Source: Thermodesulfobacterium geofontis OPF15
GTDB lineage: Bacteria; Desulfobacterota; Thermodesulfobacteria; Thermodesulfobacteriales; Thermodesulfobacteriaceae
Assembly: GCF_000215975.1 (NCBI RefSeq)
Contig: NC_015682.1
Span: 620,001-684,000 of the forward strand
Length of the DNA stretch: 64,000 nucleotides
Reading direction: 5' to 3'
The position numbers and the translations under genes were made by a program. Below are positions 16,250-53,737 of this stretch, piece by piece. How positions within the stretch are numbered: position 1 is the stretch's first letter; every line of letters begins with the position of its first letter. The notes beneath the pieces were generated by a model. That model was not told where the DNA came from, made no database searches, and saw only the letters and a program-made list of their open reading frames with translations.

Positions 16250-18325
16250 ATGGCAGGAGGAAAAGCTAAAGAAATTGAAAAAGAAATTGAAAAGGAGGCA
16301 CGAATTAGTGAAGCTGAAGTTGCAGTTCATTGGGGAGAAGAAGAATATATCGAACCTCCAGAGGAAATTAAAAGACAAGCTTACGTAACAGATCCAACTT
16401 TTAGAGAAAAATTTAAAGAAGAGAATTTTCCAGAATGTTTTCATATCTATGCTGATCTTTTAGATTGGGATAGATATTGGCATACGACTCTTGATACCTC
16501 TAATCCACCTTTTTGGAAATGGTTTGTAGGAGGGAAACTTAATGCCTGTTATAATTGTGTAGATCGCCACTTGAAAAAATATGGGAATAAAGCTGCAATA
16601 ATATGGGTTCCTGAACCTGAAGATGAACCAAAAAGAGTATTGACTTACTATGACTTATACTATCAAGTAAATGTGGTTGCTTCTGTATTACAATCTTTAG
16701 GGCTCAAAGCCGGTGATACAGTTACATTATATATGCCAATGGTTCCTGAATTACCAATTACTATGCTTGCTTGTGCGCGTTTAGGAATAATTCACTCTCA
16801 AGTTTTTTCAGGATTTAGCGGGCCTGCTTGTGCTGAAAGAATTATTGATGCAGAAAGTAAAGTATTAATTACTATAGATGGATATTGGAGAAATGGTAAA
16901 TGGATTGATCATAAAAAAAATGCTGATATAGCTGTTAATGTTGCTGCAGAAAGAGGACATAAAGTTGAAAAAGTTCTTATATGGCAAAGATATCGAGACA
17001 GATATAATTCTGAATCAAAACCTATTGAAGGAAGAGACTTTTTAATGAAAGACCTTTTAAAAGAACATAGAGGTAAAAAAGTACCTTATGTTCCTATGCC
17101 AGCAGAAGCACCACTTTTTATAATGTATACTTCTGGTTCTACAGGTAAACCTAAAGGATGTGTCCATTCTATAGGAGGATATTTAGCTTATGTAGCTGGT
17201 ACTTGTAAATATATACATGATATTCATCCTGAAGATATTCATTGGTGTATGGCTGATATTGGATGGATAACAGGTCATAGTTATATAGTTTATGGTCCTT
17301 TAGCTTTAGGAGCAACTGTATTAATATATGAGGGTGTTCCTACCTATCCTGATCCTGATAGACCTTGGAGAATTGCTGAAAGATATGGAGTTACAATTTT
17401 ACATACAGCTCCTACTGCTATTCGTTTACTTAAAAAATTAGGTAGTGATCCTTCAAAGTACGACTATAAATTTAGAATTTTAGTTACAGTTGGAGAACCT
17501 ATAGAACCTGAAGTTTGGAGATGGTATTATACAGCTGTAGGTAAAAAACAAGCAGTAGTTCTTGATACTTGGTGGCAAACAGAAACTGGAGGCTGGTTAT
17601 GTGCCCATTTACCAGGTGTAGAGCCAATGAAACTAGGAAGTACAGGTCCTGGTGCGTTAGGAATTTATCCTGTAATTTATGATGAAAACGGTAATGAAAT
17701 ACCTCCAGGTTCAGGTAAAGCAGGATACATTTGCATAAAAAATCCCTGGCCTGGAAGAATGCTTACTATATGGAAAAATCCAGAAAGAATGATAAAGGGT
17801 TATTATGAAAAATTCTGTAAAAATAAAGAAAGTAAAGACTGGCGTGACTGGCCTTATATAGCAGGTGATGCAGCTACATGTGATAAAAGAGGATATTTTA
17901 GAATTCTTGGAAGAATGGATGATATAATTAATGTGGCAGGGCACAGACTTGGTACAAAAGAAATTGAATCAGCAGCTCTTACTGTAGAAGGAGTTGCAGA
18001 AGCAGCAGTAGTTCCAAAAATAGATGAACTTAAAGGACATGTTCCTGATCTTTACATATCTCTTAAAGATGGTTATGAGCCTTCTCCTGAAATAGCAGAA
18101 AAAGTTAAAATGGCAGTTAGAAATATAATTGGTCCTATTGCAACTCCTGCCCATGTATACATAGTTCCTGATATGCCAAAAACTCGTTCAGGTAAAATTA
18201 TGCGTAGAGTACTTGCTTGTATATCAAATGGAAGAAAAGACTTTGGAGACCTTACAACACTTATAGATCCAAGTATAGTTGAAAAAATTTGGGAGATAGT
18301 ACACGGTGAAGGATTAACATTTTAA
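16250..18325 (+). CDS. acs: Acetyl-CoA synthetase, AMP-forming
   Basis: Activates acetate to acetyl-CoA through acetyl-AMP. The 691-residue protein has the ATP-binding loop YTSGSTGKPKG (293-303), the adenylate motif DTWWQTETGG, the hinge region ILGRMDDIINVAGHR and the C-terminal TRSGKIMRR whose Lys649 is the usual site of regulatory acetylation. Its N-terminus has about 20 extra charged, helical residues. An AAGGAGG ribosome site precedes the ATG. A strong terminator follows. Two CRP-like sites lie in the 172-base leader. Codon use resembles its neighbours. Confidence 0.96.
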   Translation: MAGGKAKEIEKEIEKEARISEAEVAVHWGEEEYIEPPEEIKRQAYVTDPTFREKFKEENFPECFHIYADLLDWDRYWHTTLDTSNPPFWKWFVGGKLNACYNCVDRHLKKYGNKAAIIWVPEPEDEPKRVLTYYDLYYQVNVVASVLQSLGLKAGDTVTLYMPMVPELPITMLACARLGIIHSQVFSGFSGPACAERIIDAESKVLITIDGYWRNGKWIDHKKNADIAVNVAAERGHKVEKVLIWQRYRDRYNSESKPIEGRDFLMKDLLKEHRGKKVPYVPMPAEAPLFIMYTSGSTGKPKGCVHSIGGYLAYVAGTCKYIHDIHPEDIHWCMADIGWITGHSYIVYGPLALGATVLIYEGVPTYPDPDRPWRIAERYGVTILHTAPTAIRLLKKLGSDPSKYDYKFRILVTVGEPIEPEVWRWYYTAVGKKQAVVLDTWWQTETGGWLCAHLPGVEPMKLGSTGPGALGIYPVIYDENGNEIPPGSGKAGYICIKNPWPGRMLTIWKNPERMIKGYYEKFCKNKESKDWRDWPYIAGDAATCDKRGYFRILGRMDDIINVAGHRLGTKEIESAALTVEGVAEAAVVPKIDELKGHVPDLYISLKDGYEPSPEIAEKVKMAVRNIIGPIATPAHVYIVPDMPKTRSGKIMRRVLACISNGRKDFGDLTTLIDPSIVEKIWEIVHGEGLTF

Positions 18326-18346
18326 AATCATCAAAAATTAAATCTC

Positions 18347-18376
18347 AAAGCCCCCTTTAATGGGGGCTTTTTTTAT
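18347..18376 (+). terminator. Rho-independent terminator after acs
   Basis: Nine-base-pair stem AAAGCCCCC / GGGGGCTTT with a six-base loop (TTTAAT), followed by a T-run at 18368-18374. It lies 21 bases after the acs stop and separates acs from the alcohol dehydrogenase gene. Confidence 0.93.
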
Positions 18377-18402
18377 TTAGATAGTAATTTATAATTAAAT
18401 CT

Positions 18403-19548
18403 GTGAAAGATTTTGAATTATGGATTCCTACTAAAGTTATCTTTGGCAAAAAAGCTCTAAAGCAGATTCCTAAAGAACTTTCCAGTTTTGGCAAAAAGGC
18501 TCTATGGGTTTATGGGAGAAGTTCTATAAAAATAACAGGGCTTTATAAAAAAATAAAAGAAATTTTAATTCAAGAAAATATAGAATTCATAGAACTTGGT
18601 GGAGTCAAATCTAATCCCTTTTTATCTAAAGTCTTAGAAGGGATAGAAATAGCTAAAAAACAAAAAGTAGATTTTATTTTAGCTGTAGGTGGAGGAAGTG
18701 TAATTGACACAGCAAAGGCTATTGCTTGTGGATATTATTATGAAGGAAATGTATGGGATTTTTTTGAGAAGAAAGCATATCCTGAAAAAGCTTTACCTAT
18801 AATTGTAGTTTTAACTATTGCAGGAACAGGCTCGGAACTCAATGAAGTAAGTGTGATTACTCATGATATAAAAAAAGTAAAACACTCCTTAAGAAGTCCT
18901 TTACTATTTCCTAAAGTATCCTTTTTAGATCCTACATTAACCTTTACAGTATCTCCAGAGCATACAGCTTATGGAGCAGTTGATGCCTTTTCTCATGTTT
19001 TTGAATTTTTTGTGAATAGAGAATACAAAAAAGATTCCTTGGTAGAAGATCTAATGATTGTAATTATGAAAAATATTATAAAATGGTCTAAAATTGCGCT
19101 TAAAGAACCTGATAATTATGAAGCAAGGGCAAATTTAATGTGGGCAAGCTCTTTAGCACTATGTGGATTAATAAAGGCAGGTATCGGAAGTTATAGGTTT
19201 CCTATACATGCTATAGAACATACTCTAAGCGGAGGTTATGATATACCTCATGGGTTAGGACTTGCTATTTTAATGCGAGCTTGGATGAAAATACATAGAA
19301 AAGATGAGATAATTAGAAAATTCTTTACTAAAGTATTTGATTTACCTATTCCAGAGAAAGGAATAGAATTTTTTGAGAATTGGCTAAGAGAGCTTAGAAT
19401 CCCAATGAGTTTAAAAGAAATTGGGATACCAAAAGAAGATATTGATACTTTAGTTGATAAAGCTTTTGAAATTTTTTTACTTTATGGTGCAGAAAAAGAA
19501 TATCCTAAGGAAAAAATAAGAGAAATATTAGAAACAGCTTTCTTTTAA
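18403..19548 (+). CDS. Iron-containing alcohol dehydrogenase
   Basis: NAD(P)-dependent group III alcohol dehydrogenase of 381 residues. Visible are the nucleotide-binding GGGSVIDTAKAIA, the TIAGTGSELN segment, and metal ligands in GAVDAFSHVFE (Asp and His), HAIEHTL and PHGLGLAI. The relatives include butanol/1,3-propanediol dehydrogenases, and the substrate is not predictable. The start is a GTG and begins a new unit after the acs terminator, with no clear ribosome site. It is probably co-transcribed with the following 2-hydroxyacid dehydrogenase, 21 bases away. Confidence 0.9.
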   Translation: MKDFELWIPTKVIFGKKALKQIPKELSSFGKKALWVYGRSSIKITGLYKKIKEILIQENIEFIELGGVKSNPFLSKVLEGIEIAKKQKVDFILAVGGGSVIDTAKAIACGYYYEGNVWDFFEKKAYPEKALPIIVVLTIAGTGSELNEVSVITHDIKKVKHSLRSPLLFPKVSFLDPTLTFTVSPEHTAYGAVDAFSHVFEFFVNREYKKDSLVEDLMIVIMKNIIKWSKIALKEPDNYEARANLMWASSLALCGLIKAGIGSYRFPIHAIEHTLSGGYDIPHGLGLAILMRAWMKIHRKDEIIRKFFTKVFDLPIPEKGIEFFENWLRELRIPMSLKEIGIPKEDIDTLVDKAFEIFLLYGAEKEYPKEKIREILETAFF

Positions 19549-19569
19549 AATTATAAATGGAGGTTTGAA

Positions 19570-20619
19570 ATGATTTGGAAAATAGGATTTTTTGAAATAG
19601 AAAAAGATTGGGAAAAGAACCTTTATCTTAAAAAATTTAAAGAAACTTTAAAAGAAAAAATTGAAGATACAGAAATTTATTTTTATGAAGAAACTTTAAA
19701 TGAAAATAATGTTAAAAGGTTTAGGGATTTAAATATAATAATAATTCATGCTGAATCAAAAATTAATTCAACAGTAGTAGAAAATTTGGTAGATACAAAA
19801 CTTTTAATTACCCGGACCACCGGAACAGATCATATAGATGTTTTAAGTTGTGAGAAAAAAGGAATTTTAGTAGCTAATTGCCCAGTTTATGCTTCTACCA
19901 CGGTAGCAGAACATACAGTTGCTTTAATGTTTGCTTTAGCAAGGAAATTAAAAATTGCTATAGATAAGAATAAAAAGTTAGATTTTTCAAGAGATGAACT
20001 AATGGGTATAGATCTTTTTGGCAAAACCGTAGGAATTATTGGAACAGGAAGAATAGGGAGTGAAATCGCAAGAATTGTTTATGGAATTGGTATGAAAATT
20101 TTAGCTACAGATGTTTCTCCTAATAATGAACTTGTGGAGAAATATAAAGTTAAATATGTAGATTTAGAAACTTTACTAAAAGAGTCTGACATTATTATAG
20201 TTATGGTTCCATATTATTCTCAGACTCATCATCTTATTAATAGAGAAAACATCAAACTTGTTAAGGAGGATGCTATTTTTATTAATACTGCCCGTGGACC
20301 TATAGTTGATATTGAAGCTTTAATATGGGCTTTAAAAAATAACAAACTTCAAGGCGGAATAGCGATGGATGTCTTTGAAGGTGAAAGGGTTCTTATGGAG
20401 TTTCAAAATAATTTAATTAATGGAGCATTTACTGCAGAGGAATATGAAAGGGCTCTAAAAACTTTAAGTTTATTAAATTATTCTAATATAATTTTTACTC
20501 CTCACATTGCTTATTATACTAAAGAGGCTATGGAAAGAGTGATAGATTGGGTTGTTGAAAATATTTCAAGATTTTTAGTATGTCAAGTATTACCCTTTCA
20601 ATATAAATTTTATTTTTGA
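19570..20619 (+). CDS. D-2-hydroxyacid dehydrogenase (D-lactate dehydrogenase-like)
   Basis: A 349-residue NAD-dependent enzyme of the D-isomer-specific 2-hydroxyacid dehydrogenase family. It has the Rossmann motif GIIGTGRIGSEIARI, the catalytic Arg region FINTARGPIVD, a Glu in the AMDVFEGE segment and a C-terminal TPHIAYYT that supplies the catalytic His. The bulky insertion after DVFEGE resembles D-lactate dehydrogenases more than phosphoglycerate dehydrogenases. A GGAGG site precedes the ATG. Together with the lactate permease 9 kb away this fits lactate metabolism, but the substrate is inferred. Confidence 0.85.
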   Translation: MIWKIGFFEIEKDWEKNLYLKKFKETLKEKIEDTEIYFYEETLNENNVKRFRDLNIIIIHAESKINSTVVENLVDTKLLITRTTGTDHIDVLSCEKKGILVANCPVYASTTVAEHTVALMFALARKLKIAIDKNKKLDFSRDELMGIDLFGKTVGIIGTGRIGSEIARIVYGIGMKILATDVSPNNELVEKYKVKYVDLETLLKESDIIIVMVPYYSQTHHLINRENIKLVKEDAIFINTARGPIVDIEALIWALKNNKLQGGIAMDVFEGERVLMEFQNNLINGAFTAEEYERALKTLSLLNYSNIIFTPHIAYYTKEAMERVIDWVVENISRFLVCQVLPFQYKFYF

Positions 20620-21272
20620 ACCTTCCATTCAGTGATTAAAAAATTATCTATAGTGAAATAATTTACTATTTTAAGTCTTAGAACTTTTTTAAGACTTTTG
20701 AAACCTTCTCCTCCGATTAAAGTAGGAACATTTTCTCCGCCTACCAAAACAGGGAGATGAATTATCCTTATTTCATCAATAAAGCCCTTTCTTGCTAATT
20801 CCCAATTTATTGAAGAACCACCTTCTACCATAAATTTTCTAATGCCTCTTTCATAAAGCATAGGAAGAAGTAAATCAAAATCAACTAAATCTTCTCCTGC
20901 TAAAATTACTTCAGCTCCAAGTGCTTTTATTTTTTCAATTCTTTCTTGAGGAGCCCTTTTTGTAGTAACAATAATAGTAGGAGCATCCTTTGAAAATATA
21001 TTTGCATTTAAAGGAACATTAGCAGTGGAACAGGGAATTACTCTTATAGGATTTTTTCCTTCTACATATCTTACAGTAAGACTTGGGTCATCAGTTCTTA
21101 CTGTTTCACAACCAACCATTATTGCATCTACTTGAGCTCTTATACTATGAAGATATTTATAAACTTCTTCTGTCATAAGACTCATTAATTCTTTACTTGA
21201 TGCTCCTCTATAAAGAGTAAGTTTTCCATCAATAGTTACTTCAGAAACTATAATAATATAAGGTCTATTCAT
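20610..21272 (-). CDS. RibD C-terminal-type reductase (2,5-diamino-6-ribosylamino-pyrimidinone phosphate reductase)
   Basis: A 220-residue stand-alone reductase of the RibD_C/dihydrofolate-reductase-like fold, the form used by archaea and fungi (RIB7 type) for the NADPH-dependent reduction in riboflavin synthesis. Key segments are the N-terminal VSEVTIDGKLT, the VDAIMVGCETVRTDDPSL core and KFMVEGGSSINWELARKG. The deaminase half of bacterial RibD is absent. The ATG at 21272 is preferred to a TTG at 21287 because GGGGAGA lies between them as a ribosome site. It overlaps the CDP-alcohol transferase by eight bases. The 3' end overlaps the convergent dehydrogenase by ten bases. Confidence 0.85.
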   Translation of the reverse strand: MNRPYIIIVSEVTIDGKLTLYRGASSKELMSLMTEEVYKYLHSIRAQVDAIMVGCETVRTDDPSLTVRYVEGKNPIRVIPCSTANVPLNANIFSKDAPTIIVTTKRAPQERIEKIKALGAEVILAGEDLVDFDLLLPMLYERGIRKFMVEGGSSINWELARKGFIDEIRIIHLPVLVGGENVPTLIGGEGFKSLKKVLRLKIVNYFTIDNFLITEWKVQK

Positions 21273-21891
21273 CAGAAATCTCCCCAAAATTTTTATAAAG
21301 ATAAACTAATCTATGTAAAAGAGAAAATAGAGTAAGAAGAGTTATTATTTTTATTCCATAACTTAAACCTATAGGTGCATTTAATTTTTCTAAAATAGTA
21401 AAGATAATAAGAAAAATATGAGTTTCAGGTCTTCCAAAAAATCCCACATTTTCTAAGGGATCTTTTATTTTTCCTTTTATTTTTACTTCATATCCTATTT
21501 CAGCGTAAACTACTGGTTTTATAAAAGAATGAAGCATAGTTGCAGTGATTGCTAAAATTGACCAAAAGGGATCAGCATAAAAGTATCCTACAACTCCAAG
21601 AACTAAACCATCTACCCATTTATCAGCAATCCAATCAAAAACTGCTCCAAATTTAGTAGGTTTACCAGAAAGTCTTGCTACAATTCCATCAGATAAATCA
21701 AAAATTCCTGAGGTTGCTAAAAGGGACATAGCAACAATTAAATTTCCATTATAATAAGCTAAAGCCGAAGCAGTTCCTATTAAAAGAGATAAAAAGGTAA
21801 TTAAATTAGCAGGAAAATGAAGTTTATATAAGAGGGTTCCAACAGGAGCATATATTTTTTCGAAATATTCTTTTTTCCCTGTTAAATTCAT
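21265..21891 (-). CDS. CDP-alcohol phosphatidyltransferase family protein
   Basis: A 208-residue integral membrane enzyme that moves a phosphatidyl (or similar) group from a CDP-lipid to an alcohol. The complete family motif D-x2-DG-x2-AR-x8-G-x3-D-x3-D is seen with Asp65, Asp68, Gly69, Arg73, Gly82, Asp86 and Asp90. About five to six membrane helices surround it. The acceptor (glycerol phosphate, inositol phosphate, serine) cannot be assigned. It is translationally coupled to the RibD-C reductase. Confidence 0.87.
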   Translation of the reverse strand: MNLTGKKEYFEKIYAPVGTLLYKLHFPANLITFLSLLIGTASALAYYNGNLIVAMSLLATSGIFDLSDGIVARLSGKPTKFGAVFDWIADKWVDGLVLGVVGYFYADPFWSILAITATMLHSFIKPVVYAEIGYEVKIKGKIKDPLENVGFFGRPETHIFLIIFTILEKLNAPIGLSYGIKIITLLTLFSLLHRLVYLYKNFGEISDE

Positions 21892-21985
21892 AATAAGAAA
21901 GTTTATAAAAATATACTAATTTATTCTACAAGTAAAAAAAGAAAAGTCAAGAAAAATTAGAGATAAGTTCTCAGTTAAGAATATT

Positions 21986-22369
21986 TTAAACTTCTACTCC
22001 TCTTTCTCTTAGCTCTTGTAACTTTCTTTCTCTACAGGTTTTACATCTAAATTCTGGTTGAGGGTCGCTTAATTTGTCATAATTTTTTGTTTTTACCAGT
22101 CTATATCCCTCGCATATTTCACCACAGTCAGCACATACGACATTTTCTTTAATTTGCCAAAGTGGATAAAATGCTGGTATTTTAAAATGGGATTTAAATA
22201 TAGCTTTATCTACAAACCAAAAAACATTGGCAAGAATAAACTGATTAAGTAAAAAGGCTGGGATAGTATGGATTCTTAAGTAATCACTTAATAAAAACTG
22301 TAACAAAGCTCCAGCAATGCCTGAAAGAAAAATCCAACGACCAAAAACATATACAAGCCAAGTTTTCAT
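21986..22369 (-). CDS. Small membrane protein with C-terminal zinc-ribbon-like cysteines, unknown
   Basis: I do not recognise this 127-residue protein. The N-terminal 70 residues contain two probable membrane helices (about 10-28 and 38-54). The C-terminal part has two CxxC pairs, CADC and CKTC, separated by about 25 residues, which would form a zinc ribbon on one membrane face. The tail is charged (RERKLQELRERGVEV). It is transcribed divergently from the TetR gene, with 136 bases between them, so it is a candidate target of that regulator. Confidence 0.6.
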   Translation of the reverse strand: MKTWLVYVFGRWIFLSGIAGALLQFLLSDYLRIHTIPAFLLNQFILANVFWFVDKAIFKSHFKIPAFYPLWQIKENVVCADCGEICEGYRLVKTKNYDKLSDPQPEFRCKTCRERKLQELRERGVEV

Positions 22370-22449
22370 ATTTTTAACCCCCTTTACTTTAATATAATAT
22401 AATATAATAAAAATTATACCAAGAAAAAGAGAAACTGATAAGCATACAC

Positions 22450-22478
22450 TTGACGAAAAGAAAAAATTATGAAATAAT
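22450..22478 (+). promoter_or_regulatory. Sigma-70-type promoter of the TetR gene
   Basis: TTGACG at 22450-22455 and AATAAT at 22473-22478 with 17-base spacing. The start codon follows 28 bases after the -10. Confidence 0.6.
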
Positions 22479-22488
22479 TTACAATTAA

Positions 22489-22500
22489 GTAAGTACTTAC
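22489..22500. promoter_or_regulatory. Palindromic candidate operator (TetR autoregulation)
   Basis: Perfect 12-base palindrome GTAAGTACTTAC placed just after the predicted -10 and five bases before the TetR start codon, where a bound repressor would block initiation. A role as TetR operator is inferred from position and symmetry. Confidence 0.5.
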
Positions 22501-22505
22501 AAACA

Positions 22506-23102
22506 ATGGCAGATAGAACTAAAGAAAAAATTTTAAATACTGCTTTAAAACTTTTTTCTCAAAAAGGTTATTTAGGTGCAACAACTAAAGAGATTGCTAA
22601 GTCCGCTGGAATAGCAGAAGTAACTTTATTTAGATATTTCCCTTCAAAATCTGCTTTGTTTGAGGAAGTAATTAATACCTATTCTTTTTTGCCCACTTTA
22701 AGAGAGACTCTTGAAAAAGTTAAAAATGAGCCCTGTGAAAAGGCACTTAAGATTATTGCTAAAGAATTTTTAAAAGTATTAGAAACTAAAAAGGATCTTA
22801 TAAAGATAATGCATTCCGAGATGCATAGATATCCAGAAGAGATTAAAAAAATACATGAAAATATAATAGAAAAAACTATAACAGTACTTTCTGATTATTT
22901 TAAAAATTTACAAGAGAATAAGATTTTACGTGAAATTAATACTGTTTTTGCAGCAAGAGCATTTTTAGGGATGTTTTTTTCTTATTTTTATGGAAAAGAA
23001 ATAAGGGAATGCTTAAATCTCAAAAAGGAGGATCCAGAAGAGGTAATAAATGCCTATATTGACCTATTTTTAAAAGGCATATTAAAGATAGCAAAGGAAT
23101 AA
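22506..23102 (+). CDS. TetR/AcrR family transcriptional regulator
   Basis: A 198-residue one-component regulator. The N-terminal helix-turn-helix is clear: ILNTALKLFSQKGYLGATTKEIAKSAG is typical and is followed by the recognition segment VTLFRYFPSKSALFEEV. The remainder is a helical ligand-binding domain with no identifiable ligand. Its own promoter and a 12-base palindrome lie directly upstream, suggesting autoregulation. Possible targets are itself and the divergent membrane protein gene. Confidence 0.9.
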   Translation: MADRTKEKILNTALKLFSQKGYLGATTKEIAKSAGIAEVTLFRYFPSKSALFEEVINTYSFLPTLRETLEKVKNEPCEKALKIIAKEFLKVLETKKDLIKIMHSEMHRYPEEIKKIHENIIEKTITVLSDYFKNLQENKILREINTVFAARAFLGMFFSYFYGKEIRECLNLKKEDPEEVINAYIDLFLKGILKIAKE

Positions 23103-23112
23103 GATAAAGATA

Positions 23113-23140
23113 TTGATAATGTGATTAGCTGTGTTATATT
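23113..23140 (+). promoter_or_regulatory. Probable promoter of the tRNA-Leu gene
   Basis: TTGATA (23113-23118) and TATATT (23135-23140) with 16-base spacing, ending 26 bases before the mature tRNA 5' end. Confidence 0.5.
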
Positions 23141-23166
23141 AATGAACGGGTTAAATTATAATTTTT

Positions 23167-23254
23167 GCCCGGGTGGCGGAATTAGGTAGACGCTGTGGAC
23201 TTAAAATCCACTGGAGGTAAAACCTCCGTGCCGGTTCGAGTCCGGCCCCGGGCA
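23167..23254 (+). tRNA. tRNA-Leu (anticodon UAA)
   Basis: The cloverleaf can be drawn by hand. The acceptor stem is GCCCGGG / CCCGGGC, with discriminator A at 23254. The anticodon stem is GTGGA / TCCAC with loop CTTAAAA, so the anticodon is TAA (23202-23204). A long class II variable arm GGAGG / CCTCC and a T-arm GCCGG-TTCGAGT-CCGGC follow. The CCA end is not encoded (the next bases are TTC). It is an island of high GC in an AT-rich setting, as expected for a structured RNA of a thermophile. Confidence 0.97.
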
Positions 23255-23335
23255 TTCTTAATTTAAAATCAAATTAAAAATTATCTTTCATCTTTTCAAA
23301 TTTTATCTTTTTAAAAAATTTTAATTCTTACCCTC
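23255..23335. other. AT-rich spacer between tRNA-Leu and the iorA promoter
   Basis: Together with the tRNA this makes a 303-base stretch without a protein gene. After the tRNA there is only a weak AT hairpin (TTAATTT / AAATTAA) without a proper T-run. I see no ORF or other element here. Confidence 0.5.
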
Positions 23336-23365
23336 TTTACTCCAATTATAAATATGTGTTAAAAT
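23336..23365 (+). promoter_or_regulatory. Probable promoter of iorA
   Basis: Extended -10 TGT-TAAAAT (TAAAAT at 23360-23365) with a weak -35 TTTACT at 23336-23341, 18-base spacing. The iorA ATG is 41 bases downstream. Confidence 0.45.
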
Positions 23366-23405
23366 TAAAAACTTCAAAAAATTCATTTTTTAAAGGGTGT
23401 AAAGT

Positions 23406-24956
23406 ATGGAAAAAGTTCTTATGCTTGGGGCAGAGGCTATAGCAAGAGGAGCAATAGAGGCAGGAATCTCTTATGCTACCTCTTATCCAGGTACACCAGC
23501 AACTCAAATTTTAGAATATATAGCCCTAAATACTGATATTCCCTGTGAATGGTCTATAAATGAAAAAGTAGCTCTTGAAGTAGCTTATGGAGTTAGCTTG
23601 ACAGGAAGAAGAGTTTTATGTTCTATGAAACACGTAGGGCTTAATGTAGCTGCAGATCCTTTTATAACTTTAAGTTATCTTGGAATAAGAGGGGGATTAG
23701 TAATTGCAGTAGGAGATGACCCTGGATCTTATTCATCTCAGAATGAACAAGATTCTCGATTTTATGCTTATTTTGCTAAAATTCCCTGTCTTGAGCCTTT
23801 TGATGGAGAAACAGCTAAATCTTATACAAAATTAGCCTTTGATATTTCAGAAGAGCTTGGATTACCTGTAATGATAAGAAGTCAAACCAGGCTTCTTCAT
23901 TGCTATAGTCCTGTAACTTTAGAAAATATTAAATCTCAAAAAAGTATAAATTTATTTAAAGATCCTCAGCATTTGATTGCTATTCCTGCTCATGTAATTC
24001 CTCTTCATAAAGAATTAAATGCAAAACAATCAAAAATATTAAAAATTCTTGAAAAATATAAATTTAATGAAATAATCCCTGGAAATGAAAAAATAGGAAT
24101 TATTGCTTGTGGACTCACCTTTACCTATGCTTTAGAGTTGAAAAAAAATATTCCTATTTTAAAAATTACTGCTTATCCTGTAGAAGAGGGACTTCTTAAA
24201 GAATTTTTGAGTAAAGTTGATGAAGTAATTGTTTTAGAGGAAGGATATCCCTTTTTAGAAAAAATAATCAGGTGTTTTCATCCTAAAGTAAAAGGGAAAC
24301 TTTCAGGGGATCTTCCTTCAGAAGGGGAGCTTGGGATAGATCCTATTTTAGAACTTTTTGGGAAAAAAAGAAAAGATCCTATTGCTTCTATCCCGAAAAG
24401 ACCTCCATTTTTATGTCCTGGGTGTCCCCATAGAGAATTTTATAAAGCACTTTTAGAAGCAAGACCTAATTTTGTCACAGGGGATATCGGATGTTATACC
24501 CTTGGTTGTTTACCTCCTCTTTCAGCACTTGATACTTGTCTTTGTATGGGAGCCAGTATAAGTAAAGCTGTAGGTATTGCAAAGCAAGGAATAAAAAGGG
24601 TAGCTGCTGTAATTGGTGATTCAACTTTTTGGCACTCAGGAATTCCAGCTTTAATTAATGCAGTTTATAATAAAGCTAATATTCTCGTTTGTATCCTTGA
24701 TAATTCTGTAGTAGCAATGACAGGACACCAACCTACTCCCCATCTGGGTTTAACAGCAAAAAGTGAAAAGACTAAAAAATTAGATTTAGTTGAAATTTGT
24801 AAAGCCTGTGGAGTTGATTCTGTATGTGAAATAGATCCTTTTAAAAAAGAAGAGATGATTTCTGCTTTAAAAAGAGGTCTTGATACACCAGGAGTTCATG
24901 TAGTAATTTCAAAGAGACCTTGTATATTTGTAGCTAAAAAATTTAAAGAGGTTTAA
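23406..24956 (+). CDS. iorA: Indolepyruvate:ferredoxin oxidoreductase, alpha subunit, lacking the ferredoxin domain
   Basis: Thiamine-diphosphate enzyme that interconverts aryl-pyruvates with aryl-acetyl-CoA using ferredoxin. In 516 residues it has the N-terminal pyrimidine-binding domain (ATSYPGTPATQILEYIA), a middle transketolase-C-like domain and the ThDP/Mg-binding domain with FLCPGCPHREFY and GDSTFWHSGIPALINAV. Usual IorA proteins are about 100 residues longer and end in two CxxCxxCxxxCP clusters. Here the frame stops after SKRPCIFVAKKFKEV, exactly where that ferredoxin domain should begin. The bases after the stop run into the convergent ACT gene, with no remnant of the clusters. The partner iorB is on the opposite strand 3.5 kb away. 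Confidence 0.9.
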   Translation: MEKVLMLGAEAIARGAIEAGISYATSYPGTPATQILEYIALNTDIPCEWSINEKVALEVAYGVSLTGRRVLCSMKHVGLNVAADPFITLSYLGIRGGLVIAVGDDPGSYSSQNEQDSRFYAYFAKIPCLEPFDGETAKSYTKLAFDISEELGLPVMIRSQTRLLHCYSPVTLENIKSQKSINLFKDPQHLIAIPAHVIPLHKELNAKQSKILKILEKYKFNEIIPGNEKIGIIACGLTFTYALELKKNIPILKITAYPVEEGLLKEFLSKVDEVIVLEEGYPFLEKIIRCFHPKVKGKLSGDLPSEGELGIDPILELFGKKRKDPIASIPKRPPFLCPGCPHREFYKALLEARPNFVTGDIGCYTLGCLPPLSALDTCLCMGASISKAVGIAKQGIKRVAAVIGDSTFWHSGIPALINAVYNKANILVCILDNSVVAMTGHQPTPHLGLTAKSEKTKKLDLVEICKACGVDSVCEIDPFKKEEMISALKRGLDTPGVHVVISKRPCIFVAKKFKEV

Positions 24957-24958
24957 TT

Positions 24959-25390
24959 TTATAAAGATTCTACAGTTTTGCTATCTAAAAGTTTTACGCC
25001 TTTTTTTTGGAGAAGATCTATGGTTTTATCAAGATTGTTTGTTCTTAAAACTACTAAAGCTTCTTCTCCCTTTTTTTCAACAAAAGCATACACATATTCC
25101 ACATTAATATCACCTTCATAAAGTATTTTTAAAACCTCAGCAAGTCCTCCAGGTTTATCTTTAACTCCTACTGCGAGAACATTAGTTATTTTAGTTGTAA
25201 AGCCTGCATCCTCCAGAGCTTTTTTAGCTTTTTCAGGATCATTTACAATCATTCGCAAGATACCAAATTCAGAGGTATCTGCAATGGAGAGAGCTCTAAT
25301 ATTTACATCTGCTTTTGCTAATGTATCTAAAGCCTCGTAAAGTCTTCCCTTTTTATTTTCTAAAAACACAGAAATTTGTTTAATTTTCAT
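24959..25390 (-). CDS. Tandem ACT-domain protein (copy 1)
   Basis: A 143-residue protein built of two ACT domains, small ligand-sensing folds that usually bind amino acids: IKQISVFLENKKGRLYEALD opens the first and VLAVGVKDKPGGLAEVLKIL opens the second. It has no enzymatic domain. It is the last gene of the iorB-paaK-ACT-paaK-ACT operon and resembles the ACT protein at 26736. A role in sensing aromatic amino acids or regulating the neighbouring enzymes is inferred from context. Confidence 0.85.
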   Translation of the reverse strand: MKIKQISVFLENKKGRLYEALDTLAKADVNIRALSIADTSEFGILRMIVNDPEKAKKALEDAGFTTKITNVLAVGVKDKPGGLAEVLKILYEGDINVEYVYAFVEKKGEEALVVLRTNNLDKTIDLLQKKGVKLLDSKTVESL

Positions 25391-25408
25391 AATTTTGCAT
25401 CCTCCTTT

Positions 25409-26713
25409 TTAAGTTAATCCTCTTTTATCAATAACTCTTTTTGCTTTTCCTTCGCTTCTTGGCAAACTTTTAGGTTCTACTAAAGTTACTTTTACTCTTA
25501 TTCCTACTGTTTCTTCAATTCTTTTTTCAAGTTTTCTTCTTAACTCTTCAATTTTTCTCACCTCATCTGAAAAAATTTCTTTAGACATCTCTACTTGGAC
25601 TTCTATTTCATCAAGATATTGCGGTCTGGTTAGAATAATTTGATAATGTGGTTCTACTCCTTGCACCTCAAGTATAGCTTTTTCAATTTGATAAGGAAAT
25701 AACATTACTCCTCTTACTTTAATCATATCATCAGTTCTTCCTCTTATTCTTTCAATTCTTATTGAGGTTCTTCCGCAAGAACAGATTCCGGGAATAAAAG
25801 CAGTAATATCTCTTGTTCTAAATCTTAACATAGGAACTCCTTTTTTAGTTAGGGTAGTGAGAACAAGTTCTCCTCTTTTTCCTTCAGGTAATATTTCTCC
25901 AGTTTCTGGATCAATTATTTCAGGATAAAAATGATCTTCCCATATATGAAGTCCTTCTTGAGCTGGACATTCATGAGCAACTCCAGGGCCAATTATTTCT
26001 GTTAGACCGTATACATTATAGGCTTTAATACCGAACCTTTTTTCTATCTCTTTTCTCATTTGTTCAGTCCACATCTCTGCACCAAAACTTCCAACTCTAA
26101 GTTTTAAACTTTGTGGATCTATTCCTAATTCATCTTTAGCATATTCGGCTAAATATAAAGCATAGGAAGGTGTACAAGCAAGAACAGTTGTTCCAAAATC
26201 ACGCATAAGTTCAATTTGTCTACGTGTATTTCCAGCAGATGTAGGAACAATAGTCGCACCAATAGCTAAAGCTCCATAATGGAAACCAAGTCCACCAGTA
26301 AATAATCCATATCCATAAGCAATTTGGATTATATCTTTTTTAGTAACTCCTATCATTGTAAGAGATCTTGCCATAACTTCTTTCCATACTTCTATGTCTT
26401 CTTTAGTGTATCCTATAACTACAGGTTTACCAGTTGTTCCACTTGAAGAATGTATTTCAACTATTTCAGATAAAGGCACTGCGAACATTCCAAAAGGATA
26501 AACCTCTCTCAAATCAGCTTTACTTGTAAAAGGAATATACTTTATATCTTCCAAAGTTCTTATATCTTCTGGTTTAAGACCTGCTTCTTTAAATTTTTTT
26601 TGATAATAAGGTATATGTTCATAGGCATACTTAACCACCTCTTTTATTCTTTTAAGTTGAAGTTCTCTTAGTTTTTCTCTGGGTAATGTTTCTATTTCTT
26701 TATTCCAAAACAT
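25409..26713 (-). CDS. paaK: Phenylacetate-CoA ligase family protein (copy 1)
   Basis: AMP-forming aryl-acid:CoA ligase of 434 residues. It begins with [18 protein letters not shown], characteristic of PaaK, and contains the ATP-binding loop [16 protein letters not shown], the [15 protein letters not shown] segment, the [20 protein letters not shown] region and the C-terminal SEGKAKRV with the catalytic Lys. Likely substrates are phenylacetate or indole-acetate type acids. Its neighbours are IorB and two ACT proteins, so it probably supplies or consumes aryl-acetyl-CoA for the indolepyruvate oxidoreductase. Confidence 0.92.
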
Positions 26714-26735
26714 TTATAATCCCCCTGCTGCCTTT

Positions 26736-27179
26736 TTAAAATTCATTTTTAATAAAATCAGATGATTTTAAAAATTTTACCTTTTCATCTTTTAATTTTT
26801 CCCATGTTTTTTCTAAATCCTCTACTTCAAAGACAAAATAAGCTTTCTTTCTTGTTTCAGCTACATAAACTAAAGCATTTTCTACATTTATATTTTTAGA
26901 ACTTATTAATTTTAATATCTCATAAAGTCCTCCTGGTCTATCTTCCAGTTCAATTCCTATAGCAGGGATTTTTGCTACTGTAAATCCTGCTTCTTTAAAT
27001 TTTTTATAAGCTTTTTCTGGCATATCTACAAGAAATTTTATTACACCAAAATCTTTTACACTTACTATAGAAAACCCAAGGATATTAATGTTTTCTTTTG
27101 CTAAAACTTCTGTTATTTTTTCAAGTTTGCCGGGTTTATTTTCAGCAAAAATACTTATGATATCCACATAATGATCCAT
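26736..27179 (-). CDS. Tandem ACT-domain protein (copy 2)
   Basis: A 147-residue protein with two ACT domains, seen from DIISIFAENKPGKLEKITEV and again from PAIGIELEDRPGGLYEIL. It is a paralogue of the ACT protein at 24959, and each follows a PaaK gene, so the PaaK-ACT pair has been duplicated within the operon. The two ligases may have diverged for different aryl acids, each with its own sensor; this is inference. Confidence 0.85.
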   Translation of the reverse strand: MDHYVDIISIFAENKPGKLEKITEVLAKENINILGFSIVSVKDFGVIKFLVDMPEKAYKKFKEAGFTVAKIPAIGIELEDRPGGLYEILKLISSKNINVENALVYVAETRKKAYFVFEVEDLEKTWEKLKDEKVKFLKSSDFIKNEF

Positions 27180-27194
27180 AAATAAATCCTCCTT

Positions 27195-28496
27195 TTAAAG
27201 GATTCTTTTGTCAATAACTCTTTTTGCTTTTCCTTCACTTATGGGAAGGGTGCCAGGTTCTACAAGTTCTACTTTAGGACGTACCTGGATAGCTTGTCTT
27301 AATTTTTCTGTTATATCCTCTTTTAATTTGAGAAGTCTTTCAATTCTTCCGTCAAAAAAGTCCCTATCTATTTCAACTTTAATAATCATTTCATCATAAC
27401 CTTCTAATATTATTTGATAATTTTGCGCAACTCCCTTAATACCCATAAGAACACTTTCAATTTGTTGAGGAAAAATATTTACACCTCTTACAATAAACAT
27501 ATCGTCAGCTCTACCTAAAGGACGTTCAATACGTACATGGGTTCTACCACAAGGGCAAGGTTCTGAAATAAGCCTTGTTAAATCTCTTGTACGATATCTA
27601 ATAATTGGCATAGCAGTTCTATCAAGAGTAGTAAGAACTAATTCTCCTATTTCTCCTTCTTTAACAGGTTCACCAGTTTCTGGATCAACTATTTCTACAT
27701 AAAAGGCATCTTCCCAAATATGAAGCCCCCTTTTTACAGGGCATTCAAAACCAACTCCAGGTCCGCCCATTTCTGAAAGACCATAGCAATTAAAAACGTC
27801 AATTTTTAACATCTCTTCAATTTTCTTACGAGTTTCTTCACTATAAGGTTCAGCTCCAAGATAAGCCCTTTTTAATTTTATATCTTTTCCTGGTTTTAGT
27901 CCCTTTTCTTGAATTATGGTAGCTATATAAAGCGCATAGCTAGGGGTCATATGAATACAAGTTGTTCCAAAAGTTTTCATAAGTTCTATTTGCCTTTCTG
28001 TATTTCCAGGTCCAGCTGGTATAACAAGCATTCCGAGAAGTTCAGCTCCATAATGCATTACCAGAGCACCAGTAAAAAGTCCATAAGTCATAGAATTTTG
28101 TAATATATCTTGAGAGCTTGCTCCACTCATAAAAAGAGCTCTTGCTATCAGTTTTGCTTGAGACCATATGTCTTTTTTACTAAAAAAGATAGCTTTAGGT
28201 TTGCCAGTTGTTCCACTTGAGGTATGTAAACGGATTATTTTTTCTAAGGGTTCTGCAAGTAAACCAAAAGGATAATCTACAAAAAGGTCTTCTTTGGTAG
28301 TAAACGGAAAATTTTTAAAATCTTCAAGACTTTTTAGATTTTCAGGTTTTACACCTACTTCTTTAAACTTATTTCTATAATAAGGTACTCGATTATAAAC
28401 CTTTTTAACAATTCTTTTTAATTTTTTAAGCTGTAAATTTTTTAGTTCTTCATGTGATAATAATTCAATTTCTGGATTGTAATATCTTTTTTGCAA
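27195..28496 (-). CDS. paaK: Phenylacetate-CoA ligase family protein (copy 2)
   Basis: Second PaaK paralogue, 433 residues when started at a TTG at 28496. The TTG is chosen because a GAGGAGGG ribosome site (28512 to 28504) lies seven bases before it and because the resulting N-terminus aligns with copy 1 (YYNPEIELLSHEELKNLQ). A longer reading from 28553 would add 19 non-homologous residues. It has the ATP loop [36 protein letters not shown] and the terminal SEGKAKRV. It overlaps the end of iorB by 32 bases, so the two are probably translationally coupled. Confidence 0.9.
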   Translation of the reverse strand: MQKRYYNPEIELLSHEELKNLQLKKLKRIVKKVYNRVPYYRNKFKEVGVKPENLKSLEDFKNFPFTTKEDLFVDYPFGLLAEPLEKIIRLHTSSGTTGKPKAIFFSKKDIWSQAKLIARALFMSGASSQDILQNSMTYGLFTGALVMHYGAELLGMLVIPAGPGNTERQIELMKTFGTTCIHMTPSYALYIATIIQEKGLKPGKDIKLKRAYLGAEPYSEETRKKIEEMLKIDVFNCYGLSEMGGPGVGFECPVKRGLHIWEDAFYVEIVDPETGEPVKEGEIGELVLTTLDRTAMPIIRYRTRDLTRLISEPCPCGRTHVRIERPLGRADDMFIVRGVNIFPQQIESVLMGIKGVAQNYQIILEGYDEMIIKVEIDRDFFDGRIERLLKLKEDITEKLRQAIQVRPKVELVEPGTLPISEGKAKRVIDKRIL

Positions 28497-29064
28497 AATT
28501 TCTTCCCTCCTCAAAGGCTTTAAGATTAAGATCAACGAATTTTTGGGGAACAAAATTAGTTAATACCTCTTTCCAAGTTTCAACCGAAAAGGGTAAAAAT
28601 AGAGATAATACTCCAAGAAGTATAGTATTTTCGATCTTAGTACTCCCCAGATTTTTAGCTAAATCTTCAGCTTTTATTTCCAATATTTTATATCCCTTCA
28701 TTCTTAATAGTTCTGAAACATTTTTAGGGTAAAAAGAAGGGTCAAGGGAAGGTGGAGGAATTTGTTTAAGATTTAATATAATCAATCCTTCATCTTTTAA
28801 AAAATGGGAATATCTTAAAGCCTCTATTTCTTCAAGGGCAAGCATAATGTGAGCCTCTCCTGTCGGGATAGAGGGAGAAAAAACCTTTTTTCCAAAACGT
28901 ACCTGCCCGATTACAGACCCCCCTCTTTGAGCCATTCCGTGTATCTCACTCTCTTTAACATCAAAACCACTTTTAAAAGCACACCAAGCTATTATTCTAC
29001 TTGCAAGAACAATTCCTTGTCCACCTGTTCCTACAAGTATTAAATTGGTAACTTGGTTCTCCAT
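28465..29064 (-). CDS. iorB: Indolepyruvate:ferredoxin oxidoreductase, beta subunit
   Basis: The 199-residue gamma-type (POR_N/catalytic gamma) subunit of IOR, beginning ENQVTNLILVGTGGQGIVLASRI, followed by ESEIHGMAQRGGSVIGQVRFG, both diagnostic. The ATG at 29064 is chosen. An upstream in-frame start at 29109 would lie before the predicted transcription start and adds residues unlike the family. It heads the operon iorB-paaK-ACT-paaK-ACT. Its alpha partner iorA is on the other strand and converges on the operon end. Confidence 0.92.
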   Translation of the reverse strand: MENQVTNLILVGTGGQGIVLASRIIAWCAFKSGFDVKESEIHGMAQRGGSVIGQVRFGKKVFSPSIPTGEAHIMLALEEIEALRYSHFLKDEGLIILNLKQIPPPSLDPSFYPKNVSELLRMKGYKILEIKAEDLAKNLGSTKIENTILLGVLSLFLPFSVETWKEVLTNFVPQKFVDLNLKAFEEGRNFAKKILQSRN

Positions 29065-29091
29065 AATTTTAAAAGTTTTTAAAAATAATTG

Positions 29092-29120
29092 AACAAATTT
29101 ATATAGCATAATAATTTGTT
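29092..29120. promoter_or_regulatory. Inverted repeat, candidate operator of the iorB operon
   Basis: AACAAATT (29092-29099) and AATTTGTT (29113-29120), a perfect 8-base inverted repeat with a 13-base spacer. The two arms flank the predicted minus-strand -10 box, the expected place for a repressor. The identity of the regulator is unknown. Confidence 0.5.
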
Positions 29121-29127
29121 ACGTCAA
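29100..29127 (-). promoter_or_regulatory. Promoter of the iorB-paaK operon
   Basis: Reading the minus strand, TTGACG (29127 to 29122) and TATATA (29105 to 29100) are 16 bases apart, with a TGC extension before the -10. Transcription would start near 29093 and leave a leader of about 28 bases. Confidence 0.6.
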
Positions 29128-29161
29128 TATAATTTTATAATCAAAAAATTTTTTAAAATTC

Positions 29162-29189
29162 TTGCAAATAAATGGGATTTTCTTATAAT
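29162..29189 (+). promoter_or_regulatory. Promoter of the lactate permease gene
   Basis: TTGCAA (29162-29167) and a consensus TATAAT (29184-29189), 16-base spacing. Confidence 0.6.
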
Positions 29190-29202
29190 CTCTTTTCATT
29201 GA

Positions 29203-29218
29203 TGTAAAAAATTTAACA
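29203..29218. promoter_or_regulatory. Possible CRP/FNR-type palindrome in the lactate permease leader
   Basis: TGTAAAAAATTTAACA, of the form TGTNA-N6-TNACA, located just after the predicted transcription start. Being A/T only except for the G and C at its ends, it could arise by chance in this genome. Confidence 0.25.
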
Positions 29219-29239
29219 TAAAGTTGTAGGAGGTGAATT

Positions 29240-30829
29240 ATGGATTTTTTCTTGGCCATGCTTCCTATATTACTTAGTATCATAGGAATGATATTTTTTT
29301 ATCGTTCAGGAGCTTTTGTTTCTGTAGTTGGTTGGATACTTGCATTAATTTTAGCAGTTTATTATTTTCATACTCCTTGGGAAGTAGCGTTAGGAGCAAG
29401 TTTAATAGGTATAATTAAAGCTCTTGGGATAACTCTTGCAATTACTTTTACTATGTTTTTAATCTTTCTTATGAAAGAAACAGGAGCTTTAGGTAAAATT
29501 ATTGAATACATTAAGGGGATTGCCAAAGATAAAGAGGAACAAACTTTATTTTTAGGAATGGGATTTGGTTCTCTTTCCACCTCTCTTGGCATGGTTACTC
29601 CTGCTATGTTCCCTCCTATTTTCAGAATGCTTGGTTTTTCTTCTATTTCTGCTATTGCTATAAGTATTCTTTGTTATGATCCTCTCACCTCTTTTGCTTT
29701 ATTTTCTATTCCTATTACTGTACCTGCTGAGGTTGCTTTTAAGGTATTCCATATCCAGCCTGCAGGAATTGAAAATCTTCAAGAATTTATTTGGGACTTT
29801 ACTTTTAAAATTACAACCTTTTTGCCCCCTCTCTCGATTTCTTTTGCATTTATAATGTTATGGGTTGTCGGTGGGAAAGAAGCAATTGTTAAACACTGGA
29901 AACCTGCTCTTGGTTCAGGACTTGTTTTATCATTATCAGCTTTAACTATGGCTTGGTTAAGGATTTTACCTGTAGAGGTAATTGGTATTTTTTCTGGATT
30001 TCTTACTATGCTTTTTGTTAATGTATATTATCGCAGTAAAAATAACTATATCAATAAAGTAAAAATTAACAAAGAAATTTTTAAAGCTTTCCTTCCCTTT
30101 TTTCTGTTAATTCTTTTTTCCACAGTGGTAAATATTCCAAGTGTTAAAAATTTTCTTTCAAACATTTTAGGTTCCTACGAGATTATAAGAGTTTTTGCAG
30201 ATAAAAAAGAAGACTTAAATATCATGGCAAATGTTTGGTTTTGGATTTTAGTAGTATCAATCATTTCAATCTTTATCTTAAAACCTTCCTTAGATACTAT
30301 GAAAAGGGTTTTAAAAATTTGGAGTACCCGTATAGGGGGTCCTTTTATAGCTCATTCTCTGTTTTTTGCTGTAGCTTTTATAATGGCTTGGTCAGGAATG
30401 GAGGTAATAGATGGAAAACTTGTCCCAGGTCCTTATTTTAAAGAATATAACATGAACATTATAATAGCCTTTACTTTGGCTAATCTTTTTGGGCAAGCCT
30501 ATCCTCTTGTAGTTCCTTTTATTGGTTTAATAGGGGCTTTTGTTGGAGGAAGTGAGACCGCATCAAATGTTCTTTTTGCTAAAATTCAGTGGGAAACAAC
30601 CCTTTTTACCTTAGGAGCACCTGCATTTATGTGGATTTTTGCGGCCCATGCTGTTGGTGGAGGTATTGCCTCAGCTATTACTCCATCAAAAATTACTAAC
30701 GCAGCTGCAACTATAGGAGTGAGCGGAAAAGAAGAAGGTAAATTTATAAAAATTGTTTTAATACCTATTTTAATAATTACTTTTATAACCGGGTTTATTT
30801 TGATGCTTTATTTAAAAATTTTTGGTTAA
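29240..30829 (+). CDS. L-lactate permease family transporter
   Basis: A 529-residue membrane protein of the LctP/LldP family, which imports L-lactate (and glycolate) with protons. It has about 12-14 hydrophobic helices and family segments such as LGMGFGSLSTSLGMVTPAMF and the C-terminal AHAVGGGIASAITPSKI. A TAGGAGGTG ribosome site precedes the ATG and a good promoter lies upstream. It stands alone between divergent iorB and the FmdB gene. Lactate is a typical electron donor for sulfate reducers, which fits the suspected lineage. Confidence 0.9.
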   Translation: MDFFLAMLPILLSIIGMIFFYRSGAFVSVVGWILALILAVYYFHTPWEVALGASLIGIIKALGITLAITFTMFLIFLMKETGALGKIIEYIKGIAKDKEEQTLFLGMGFGSLSTSLGMVTPAMFPPIFRMLGFSSISAIAISILCYDPLTSFALFSIPITVPAEVAFKVFHIQPAGIENLQEFIWDFTFKITTFLPPLSISFAFIMLWVVGGKEAIVKHWKPALGSGLVLSLSALTMAWLRILPVEVIGIFSGFLTMLFVNVYYRSKNNYINKVKINKEIFKAFLPFFLLILFSTVVNIPSVKNFLSNILGSYEIIRVFADKKEDLNIMANVWFWILVVSIISIFILKPSLDTMKRVLKIWSTRIGGPFIAHSLFFAVAFIMAWSGMEVIDGKLVPGPYFKEYNMNIIIAFTLANLFGQAYPLVVPFIGLIGAFVGGSETASNVLFAKIQWETTLFTLGAPAFMWIFAAHAVGGGIASAITPSKITNAAATIGVSGKEEGKFIKIVLIPILIITFITGFILMLYLKIFG

Positions 30830-30852
30830 ATTTTAAAGTTTGAAAAATTTTA

Positions 30853-30880
30853 TTGAGTTTTAAAGGATTTATGTTAAAAT
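30853..30880 (+). promoter_or_regulatory. Promoter of the FmdB-type gene
   Basis: TTGAGT (30853-30858) and an extended -10 TGT-TAAAAT (TAAAAT 30875-30880) with 16-base spacing; the ATG is at 30913. Confidence 0.5.
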
Positions 30881-30912
30881 AATTTAAAATATTTTTCTAA
30901 AGGTTTCTTAAA

Positions 30913-31161
30913 ATGCCTATATATGAATTTAAATGTCAAGATTGTGGAGCTGAATTTGAGGTATTTTTAAAAAATAAAGAGGAACTTTCTGAAGTTAAAT
31001 GTAAATCTTGTGAAAGTAAAAATATTAAGAGACTTATGAGTGTAGTTAATTCTATAATAAGTGATTCTGGAAGTTCTTCAGACAAGCCAAGGGTTTCAGA
31101 AACTTACTCATGTCCAACTGGAACCTGTACTCATTTAGAACTTCCAGGATATGAGAAGTAA
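30913..31161 (+). CDS. FmdB-family zinc-ribbon protein
   Basis: An 82-residue protein that opens with MPIYEFKCQDCGAEFE, the FmdB/CxxC_CxxC_SSSS regulatory-protein signature, with a second CKSCES pair at about 36-41 forming a zinc ribbon. A further CPTGTC sits in the C-terminal tail. Family members are small presumed regulators; one was named for formamidase expression but most have no known role. It has its own promoter, with no operon partners on the plus strand. Confidence 0.88.
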   Translation: MPIYEFKCQDCGAEFEVFLKNKEELSEVKCKSCESKNIKRLMSVVNSIISDSGSSSDKPRVSETYSCPTGTCTHLELPGYEK

Positions 31162-31165
31162 ATTT

Positions 31166-31759: not shown

Positions 31760-31760
31760 T

Positions 31761-33411: not shown

Positions 33412-33450
33412 ATTTAACCTCCTTGAAGTATTTAAAAGATAACATCAAAA

Positions 33451-35269
<1,819 letters not shown>

Positions 35270-35274
35270 TTATC

Positions 35275-53531: not shown

Positions 53532-53737
53532 TCTTGCCCCTCTTCTACAAAAACCACATCAGGACACATAAGATAACATATTCCACACATATTACATCTT
53601 TCAGGATATTTAGCATAGACTACTCTATAACCTTGAAAATTTCTTTTAGAAGAAAAATCTAAGACTTTTTTAGGACAGAAATGTATACAAAGACCGCAAG
53701 ATTTGCAACGCTCCTCAAGAATCTTTATTTTAAAAAT
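53528..53737 (-). CDS. 2-oxoacid:ferredoxin oxidoreductase, delta (ferredoxin) subunit with non-standard start
   Basis: A small 2[4Fe-4S] ferredoxin of about 66-69 residues between fabD and the alpha subunit, read by hand. Two clusters are clear: CKSCGLCIHFCP and CNMCGICYLMCP. The frame ends with EEGQE and a TGA overlapping the alpha-subunit ATG. In this frame there is no ATG, GTG or TTG between the preceding in-frame stop and the first cluster. A GGGGGAGG ribosome site (53748 to 53741) is followed by an ATT at 53737 (spacer 3) and an ATA at 53728 (spacer 12), so initiation must use a rare codon, or the sequence has an error. The coordinate given is the ATT. Confidence 0.85.
   Translation of the reverse strand: MFKIKILEERCKSCGLCIHFCPKKVLDFSSKRNFQGYRVVYAKYPERCNMCGICYLMCPDVVFVEEGQE

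Follow-up and report, generated by a model that had tools for sequence, protein, structure and literature searches.

The window, the 64,000-nucleotide stretch of DNA analysed here (bases 620001-684000 of the 1.63 Mb single-contig genome of Thermodesulfobacterium geofontis OPF15), carries at 23406..24956 (+) a 516-aa IorA-like alpha subunit with a complete ThDP core and without the C-terminal 2[4Fe-4S] ferredoxin domain. A tRNA-Leu (taa) gene lies about 150 bases upstream (23166-23255, +), and beyond iorA the opposite strand carries, in order, an ACT-domain pair protein convergent with iorA (PF19571; 24959..25390, -), a PaaK-like AMP-forming CoA ligase (25409..26713, -), a second ACT-domain pair protein recognized by Pfam (26736..27179, -), a second PaaK-like AMP-forming CoA ligase (27195..28553, -), and a 214-aa IorB-like beta subunit (28465..29109, -). 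Both ligases (567.6 and 476.7 bits against TIGR02155, cut-off 646.3) and IorB (178.2 bits against TIGR03334, cut-off 205.8) miss the cut-offs of their best NCBIfam equivalogs, and IorB carries the POR-type domain of a partner subunit (PF01558, 134.3 bits vs. 27.4). iorA and iorB do not share an operon in this genome, each is present as one close copy, and we infer that their products pair. A second, tailed IorA in the genome was sought and rejected, as the other three protein matches were weak; the IOR_alpha profile gave nine matches genome-wide, the next best at 69.2 bits vs. 583. Adjoining iorB is a lactate-permease-like transporter gene (29240-30829, +), as also seen in L075 and L076; an aryl acid as its substrate is a guess.

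The IorA frame ends in SKRPCIFVAKKFKEV followed by the stop codon, ten residues after its last conserved cysteine, C506. A profile search matched it to positions 2-538 of the 595 in TIGR03336 (IOR_alpha; 583.2 bits, E 5e-175, under the curated cut-off of 650.9), leaving unmatched the final 57 positions that make up the C-terminal ferredoxin domain (about 540-595). Pfam placed a sole domain above cut-off, TPP_enzyme_C (PF02775, 88.2 bits vs. 21.9), with POR_N and TPP_enzyme_N matches below cut-off and no Fer4 domain. These results bear out the sequence-only reading that the frame stops after the ThDP domain without cluster motifs. That no remnant precedes the convergent gene also held: two bases separate the iorA stop from the stop of the ACT gene, whose end at 24959 leaves no room for a tail remnant 3' of iorA, and no CxxCxxC motif occurs in any of the six frames of 24951-25420. 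Nor is an equivalent ferredoxin domain found in IorB, which has one cysteine and no Fe-S motif.

We next consider how widely this architecture is shared. Sixty genomes, including 41 of the order Thermodesulfobacteriales (G000-G040), were searched with the IOR_alpha profile, and loci were read individually, save the form-C gene of G026, known from the profile-search table only. A tail-less IorA was found in 36 of the 41 genomes of the order, as one of two forms that are about 40% identical and never occur together: form A (24 genomes, mostly 560-570 aa, with iorA adjoining iorB) and form B, the window's kind (12 genomes, 516-529 aa). The sequence-only reading had proposed checking whether the tail is missing across the group, and it is, in two separate clades. 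The remaining five genomes (G005, G009, G011, G012, and G015) have no complete IorA, with G012 showing the 3' end of a tailed IorA at a contig edge. A tailed form C was additionally observed in the form-B genomes G004, G008, G024, and G026; these four tailed proteins score 548.5-567.3 bits, also under the IOR_alpha cut-off. The convergent six-gene unit was found in 10 of the 12 form-B genomes, counting G018 (iorB just past the locus end), G004 (complete in a second record), and G029 (5' end of iorA cut by the contig); in G014 the unit is cut by a contig end, and in G007 the genes around iorA differ and iorB sits on another contig.

A wider search covered 395 genomes of the phylum, 308 of which had a match at E <= 1e-80; among those listed, all 144 matches from outside the order were stop-to-stop frames of 573-698 aa, long enough to hold a tail. 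Among 77 named loci, several of them from genomes already among the 60, 19 were tail-less, 56 extended by 56 or more residues past the matched core, and L131 and L149 were cut by contig ends. The 19 comprise 15 loci of the form-B kind together with L133, L135, L136, and L141. Records of the form-B kind come from Thermodesulfobacterium, Caldimicrobium and relatives, from Thermodesulfovibrionales/Nitrospirota, where the same convergent unit is complete in L082, L085, L087, and L089 and cut in L086, and from one Altiarchaeota record (L088), in which iorA adjoins iorB. The Nitrospirota clusters also carry an extra ACT-pair gene past iorB, 51% identical to ACT1 (L085:14533-14964, L087:14281-14712, and L089:13867-14298).

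To compare tail lengths, 112 IorA proteins were aligned, with eight loci left out (seven partial or split frames, and the complete tailed L101, left out without good reason). The number of residues past position 508 is bimodal, at 6-23 in 45 proteins and at least 59 in 67 (the latter including L034 and L074, which are the same gene); the window's IorA has 8. Because tail length is bimodal over these 112 proteins, the absence of the ferredoxin tail is neither chance nor sequencing error, and we regard it as genuine. The 45 tail-less proteins comprise 24 of form A, 17 of form B, and 4 of a third clade.

Trees were built without the tail columns, a quick one from 85 of the 112 proteins (27 rows, mostly near-duplicates, being dropped beforehand) and a careful one, also used for the AU test, from 54 rows (31 more being dropped as long, odd, or near-duplicate). 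Both require three changes of tail state, a count that cannot separate loss from gain; tailed proteins are scattered over the tree, and we therefore infer losses. In the careful tree, form A groups with tailed relatives (support 100/100) and form B beside another clade of tailed IorA (97/97). A single tail-less ancestor of forms A and B was rejected (p-AU 9.6e-5), as was a grouping of both with the third clade (p-AU 9.7e-5). Since A and B form separate clades, the tail-less state arose at least twice in the order, and the third tail-less origin, as placed by the tree, is a clade that unites Asgard-archaeal records with a single deltaproteobacterial MAG. On this evidence the absence of the domain is clade-wide and arose more than once. 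Form A occurs in all three families of the order and form B in one, and this distribution, together with their mutual exclusion, suggests that B replaced A in part of one family. A broader idea, which we offer tentatively and regard as rather doubtful, is that IOR-type enzymes shed the ferredoxin domain repeatedly (three times in this sample), that within this order one tail-less lineage was swapped for an independently tail-less one, and that in such hosts the tail is dispensable or even disfavoured, perhaps in a carboxylating enzyme fed at its proximal cluster by a strongly reduced ferredoxin pool.

The remaining core is conserved. Four cysteines, C337, C340, C363, and C506, are retained by all 45 tail-less proteins; among tailed proteins, C337 and C340 are present in 67 of 67, and C363 and C506 in 66 of 67 (L143 lacking them). 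A ThDP-domain profile built from 26 proteins aligns these four with C12, C15, C46, and C197 of StOFOR1 beta (5b48_B, E 1.3e-8), C46 and C197 being residues that we take to be cluster ligands, and likewise with their counterparts in StOFOR2 beta and Helicobacter pylori OGOR beta. In a plain BLAST, the window's own OFOR beta subunit also aligned at the CPGC loop, but its C52 fell opposite the poorly conserved C368 instead of C363, and the alignment stopped short of C506; we preferred the profile alignment for cysteine assignment. At the sequence level, then, IorA holds the superfamily's four proximal-cluster cysteines (CxGC plus two), with the CPGC loop (C337 and C340; 24414..24425, +) likely supplying the first two ligands of a proximal [4Fe-4S] cluster.

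A predicted structure of IorA, built from a 42-row alignment, reached pLDDT 91.2 and pTM 0.90, with confidence dropping around 101-111 and 321-330 and over the final six residues. Over residues 1-516 the model fits the PFOR of Desulfovibrio africanus (1b0p_A; Z 29.1, 492 aligned, rmsd 2.9) and 7plm_A (Z 29.1, 500 aligned), and over residues 2-516 the Moorella PFOR (6cio; Z 29.3). Together with PF02775, the 1b0p_A fit gives IorA a ThDP core with the PFOR fold. Identity to the D. africanus and Moorella PFORs is 16-17%, and they differ in being single chains whose domain V, the superfamily's counterpart of the missing ferredoxin domain, holds two more clusters. Over residues 1-320 the top fold match was 2-oxoglutarate:ferredoxin oxidoreductase from Magnetococcus marinus (6n2n, Z 30.9, 18% identity over 311 residues), tied within Z 1 with 5c4i, 4wbx, and 9bt4. 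A Foldseek list of PDB entries placed an OFOR subunit first and continued mostly with acetohydroxyacid synthases and the like at rmsd of about 20-23; our fold conclusions rest on the 1b0p_A-type fits instead. No molecule named indolepyruvate oxidoreductase appeared among the PDB sequence matches.

Where, then, would electrons leave? The sequence-only reading held that they must exit through a separately encoded ferredoxin. That the carrier is a separate molecule stands; the need for one is not distinctive, because OFORs with an internal ferredoxin domain also hand electrons to external ferredoxin, according to PMC5020499. What would set the tail-less IorA apart is an exit at the proximal [4Fe-4S] site. 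OFORs without an internal ferredoxin domain are described in Yan et al. 2016 (PMC5020499), including StOFOR1, which reduces soluble ferredoxin with a Km of 2-3 uM, and StOFOR2, whose modelled ferredoxin sits at the sole cluster's CxGC loop, at a distance of 14 A. We consider it quite probable that the window's protein is likewise the alpha subunit of a 2-oxoacid:ferredoxin oxidoreductase without domain V, with a single proximal cluster at which soluble ferredoxin docks directly, and by analogy such docking is the simplest reading. ThDP would activate the 2-oxoacid, the sole proximal [4Fe-4S] cluster would receive the electrons, and a soluble ferredoxin would dock where the tail would otherwise sit, likely at the CPGC loop, in line with the StOFOR2 model.

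Candidate carriers would be two small ferredoxins encoded elsewhere in the genome. A Fer4_7 search gave 36 matches, including, apart from the window's delta-type frame described below, two short stand-alone proteins, one of 62 aa with two cluster motifs (C1:1200885-1201070) and one of 65 aa (C1:1260718-1260912). The former was detected in 24 of 24 form-A and 8 of 12 form-B genomes (E <= 1e-9), the latter in 11 of 24 and 9 of 12 (E <= 1e-6), such that at least one is present in all 36 genomes with a tail-less IorA. One of the two is also present in four of the five genomes of the order without a tail-less IorA, and they are therefore not tied to it. The co-occurring ferredoxin that the sequence-only reading suggested looking for thus exists but is not specific, and no ferredoxin restricted to genomes with a tail-less IorA emerged. 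The frame before the 62-aa ferredoxin gene presumably encodes cobyrinate diamide synthase.

An alternative that we consider unlikely is that the tail now exists as a ferredoxin subunit of its own, dedicated to IorAB and permanently bound to it, as with the delta subunits of other OFORs. Split subunits of this kind exist (PMC13285125), a delta-type 2[4Fe-4S] frame (about 53528-53758) accompanies another OFOR cluster within the window itself, and the 62-aa protein found in all form-A and two-thirds of form-B genomes is a dicluster ferredoxin; its gene, however, lies elsewhere in the genome and is present also in genomes without IorA. Moreover, no conserved ferredoxin gene was found within some kilobases of iorA and iorB with the motif C..C..C...C, which misses other cluster types: ORFs with this motif, of 161 and 163 aa, occurred at 2 of 11 form-B loci, and others of 314-326 aa at 4 of 24 form-A loci; the one form-A ORF run through Pfam is a CCG/Fer4_8 protein. 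L063 has an additional 248-aa ORF with the motif.

Still less likely, in our view very much so, is that another carrier (NAD(P)H via a flavoprotein, or flavodoxin) has taken the place of ferredoxin. Its support comes from the third tail-less clade (Jordarchaeia and Freyarchaeota records plus one deltaproteobacterial MAG), in which L133 (L133:7872-11984), L135 (L135:2753-6844), L136, and L141 have a separate GltD-like gene (Fer4_20 + Pyr_redox_2; by Pfam in L135 and by similarity in the other three) between iorA and iorB; there, judging from gene content, a different carrier looks real. No such gene was found in the 24 form-A loci, the 17 form-B loci, or positions 17001-36000 of the window, whereas it was recovered in five of five control loci, and the different carrier offered as an option by the sequence-only reading accordingly finds no support here. 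Separately, in Dehalococcoidales/Chloroflexi records IorA is fused to a GltD-like module (Fer4_20 + Pyr_redox_2) in L129:7965-11267 and L151:7953-11015, flanked in L129 by the ThDP core and a cysteine-rich ferredoxin-like end, and long IorA frames also occur in L108 and L010; the fusion suggests an NAD(P)H-linked IOR.

It is scarcely credible that IorA has given up oxidoreductase chemistry to act as a non-oxidative ThDP enzyme, a decarboxylase: its ThDP domain weakly resembles phosphonopyruvate and sulfopyruvate decarboxylases, but the IorB gene is retained and the four cysteines are invariant in the 45 tail-less proteins, which a plain decarboxylase would have no need of. An error of sequencing or assembly, a frameshift artefact, or a gene that broke only recently can be dismissed almost outright. 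The only support for this is the TIGR03336 score under the cut-off, while form-B relatives from other assemblies (68-85% identity) stop no more than a few residues from the same point, no downstream frame holds an Fe-S motif, and the catalytic motifs are retained.

We also compared the window's IorA with known systems. It shares with IorAB of Pyrococcus and Methanothermobacter (TIGR03336/TIGR03334) the core domains, ThDP motifs, conserved cysteines, and POR-type beta subunit, and differs in lacking the C-terminal 2[4Fe-4S] domain and in having both alpha and beta under the curated cut-offs. By the strict test it is thus not a TIGR03336 member, falling short on two features (score and ferredoxin domain), yet it is placed inside the IorA tree. 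Single-cluster OFORs (Sulfolobus tokodaii StOFOR1/2, Halobacterium POR/KOR, and Hydrogenobacter thermophilus KorAB) likewise lack domain V and, according to PMC5020499, use a sole proximal cluster and an external ferredoxin acceptor; the window's IorA has the aligning cysteines, and as in that type neither its alpha nor its beta subunit holds an internal ferredoxin domain. In contrast to them, IOR has both ThDP-binding parts in one chain, which is a different subunit split, and it has other substrates and belongs to another branch of the superfamily. IorA is a member of the OFOR superfamily whose anatomy points to the single-cluster way of working. Form C (L052, L053, and L054; genomes G024, G004, and G008), co-resident with form B and with the gene order iorA-iorB-paaK, differs from form B in its ferredoxin tail and its deep, separate branch.

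Regarding the pathway, iorA on this reading encodes a whole alpha subunit of an IorAB-type 2-oxoacid:ferredoxin oxidoreductase, with arylpyruvate as its probable substrate; curated models do not certify the substrate class, as IorA and IorB fall below the TIGR03336 and TIGR03334 cut-offs. Given the neighbouring ACT-pair proteins and PaaK-like AMP-forming ligases, two of each, the enzyme probably interconverts arylacetate and arylpyruvate. According to PMC13285125, where an IOR is encoded next to an AMP-forming arylacetate-CoA ligase (Bacteroides being an example), it may take part in making aromatic amino acids, a role argued from the tendency of these ligases towards CoA-ester formation. The ligase and ACT-pair genes of the window agree with this, and the direction here is perhaps also the amino-acid-making one. 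An essential role in phenylalanine synthesis was weakened as a candidate, since the genome encodes a prephenate dehydratase and this synthesis need not depend on IorA. The tailed relatives L096, L100, and L074 have PaaK and ACT neighbours too, and it therefore seems that the tail has changed and the pathway has not.

Collectively, these findings make the ferredoxin domain, usually counted as part of IorA, optional. The tail-less IorA departs modestly from a known class of enzyme and likely follows the ordinary chemistry of its superfamily, and no report of one was found in the literature searched, most subscription journals lying outside its scope. Forms B and C in the same genomes offer a natural pair for assessing how two extra clusters affect speed, direction, and partner choice. 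Caution is also warranted in annotation, where a tail-less IorA can score under the IOR_alpha cut-off.

Finally, two further Fe-S loci were observed. The second OFOR cluster of the window (51158-53758, -) consists of alpha, beta, and gamma genes plus the delta-type frame, for which the stretch read shows no ATG close to the 5' end. In G000, two Fe-S genes about 0.95 Mb apart (C1:502551-502877 and 1449256-1449582) have identical match scores and frame lengths, and possibly represent a duplicated segment.
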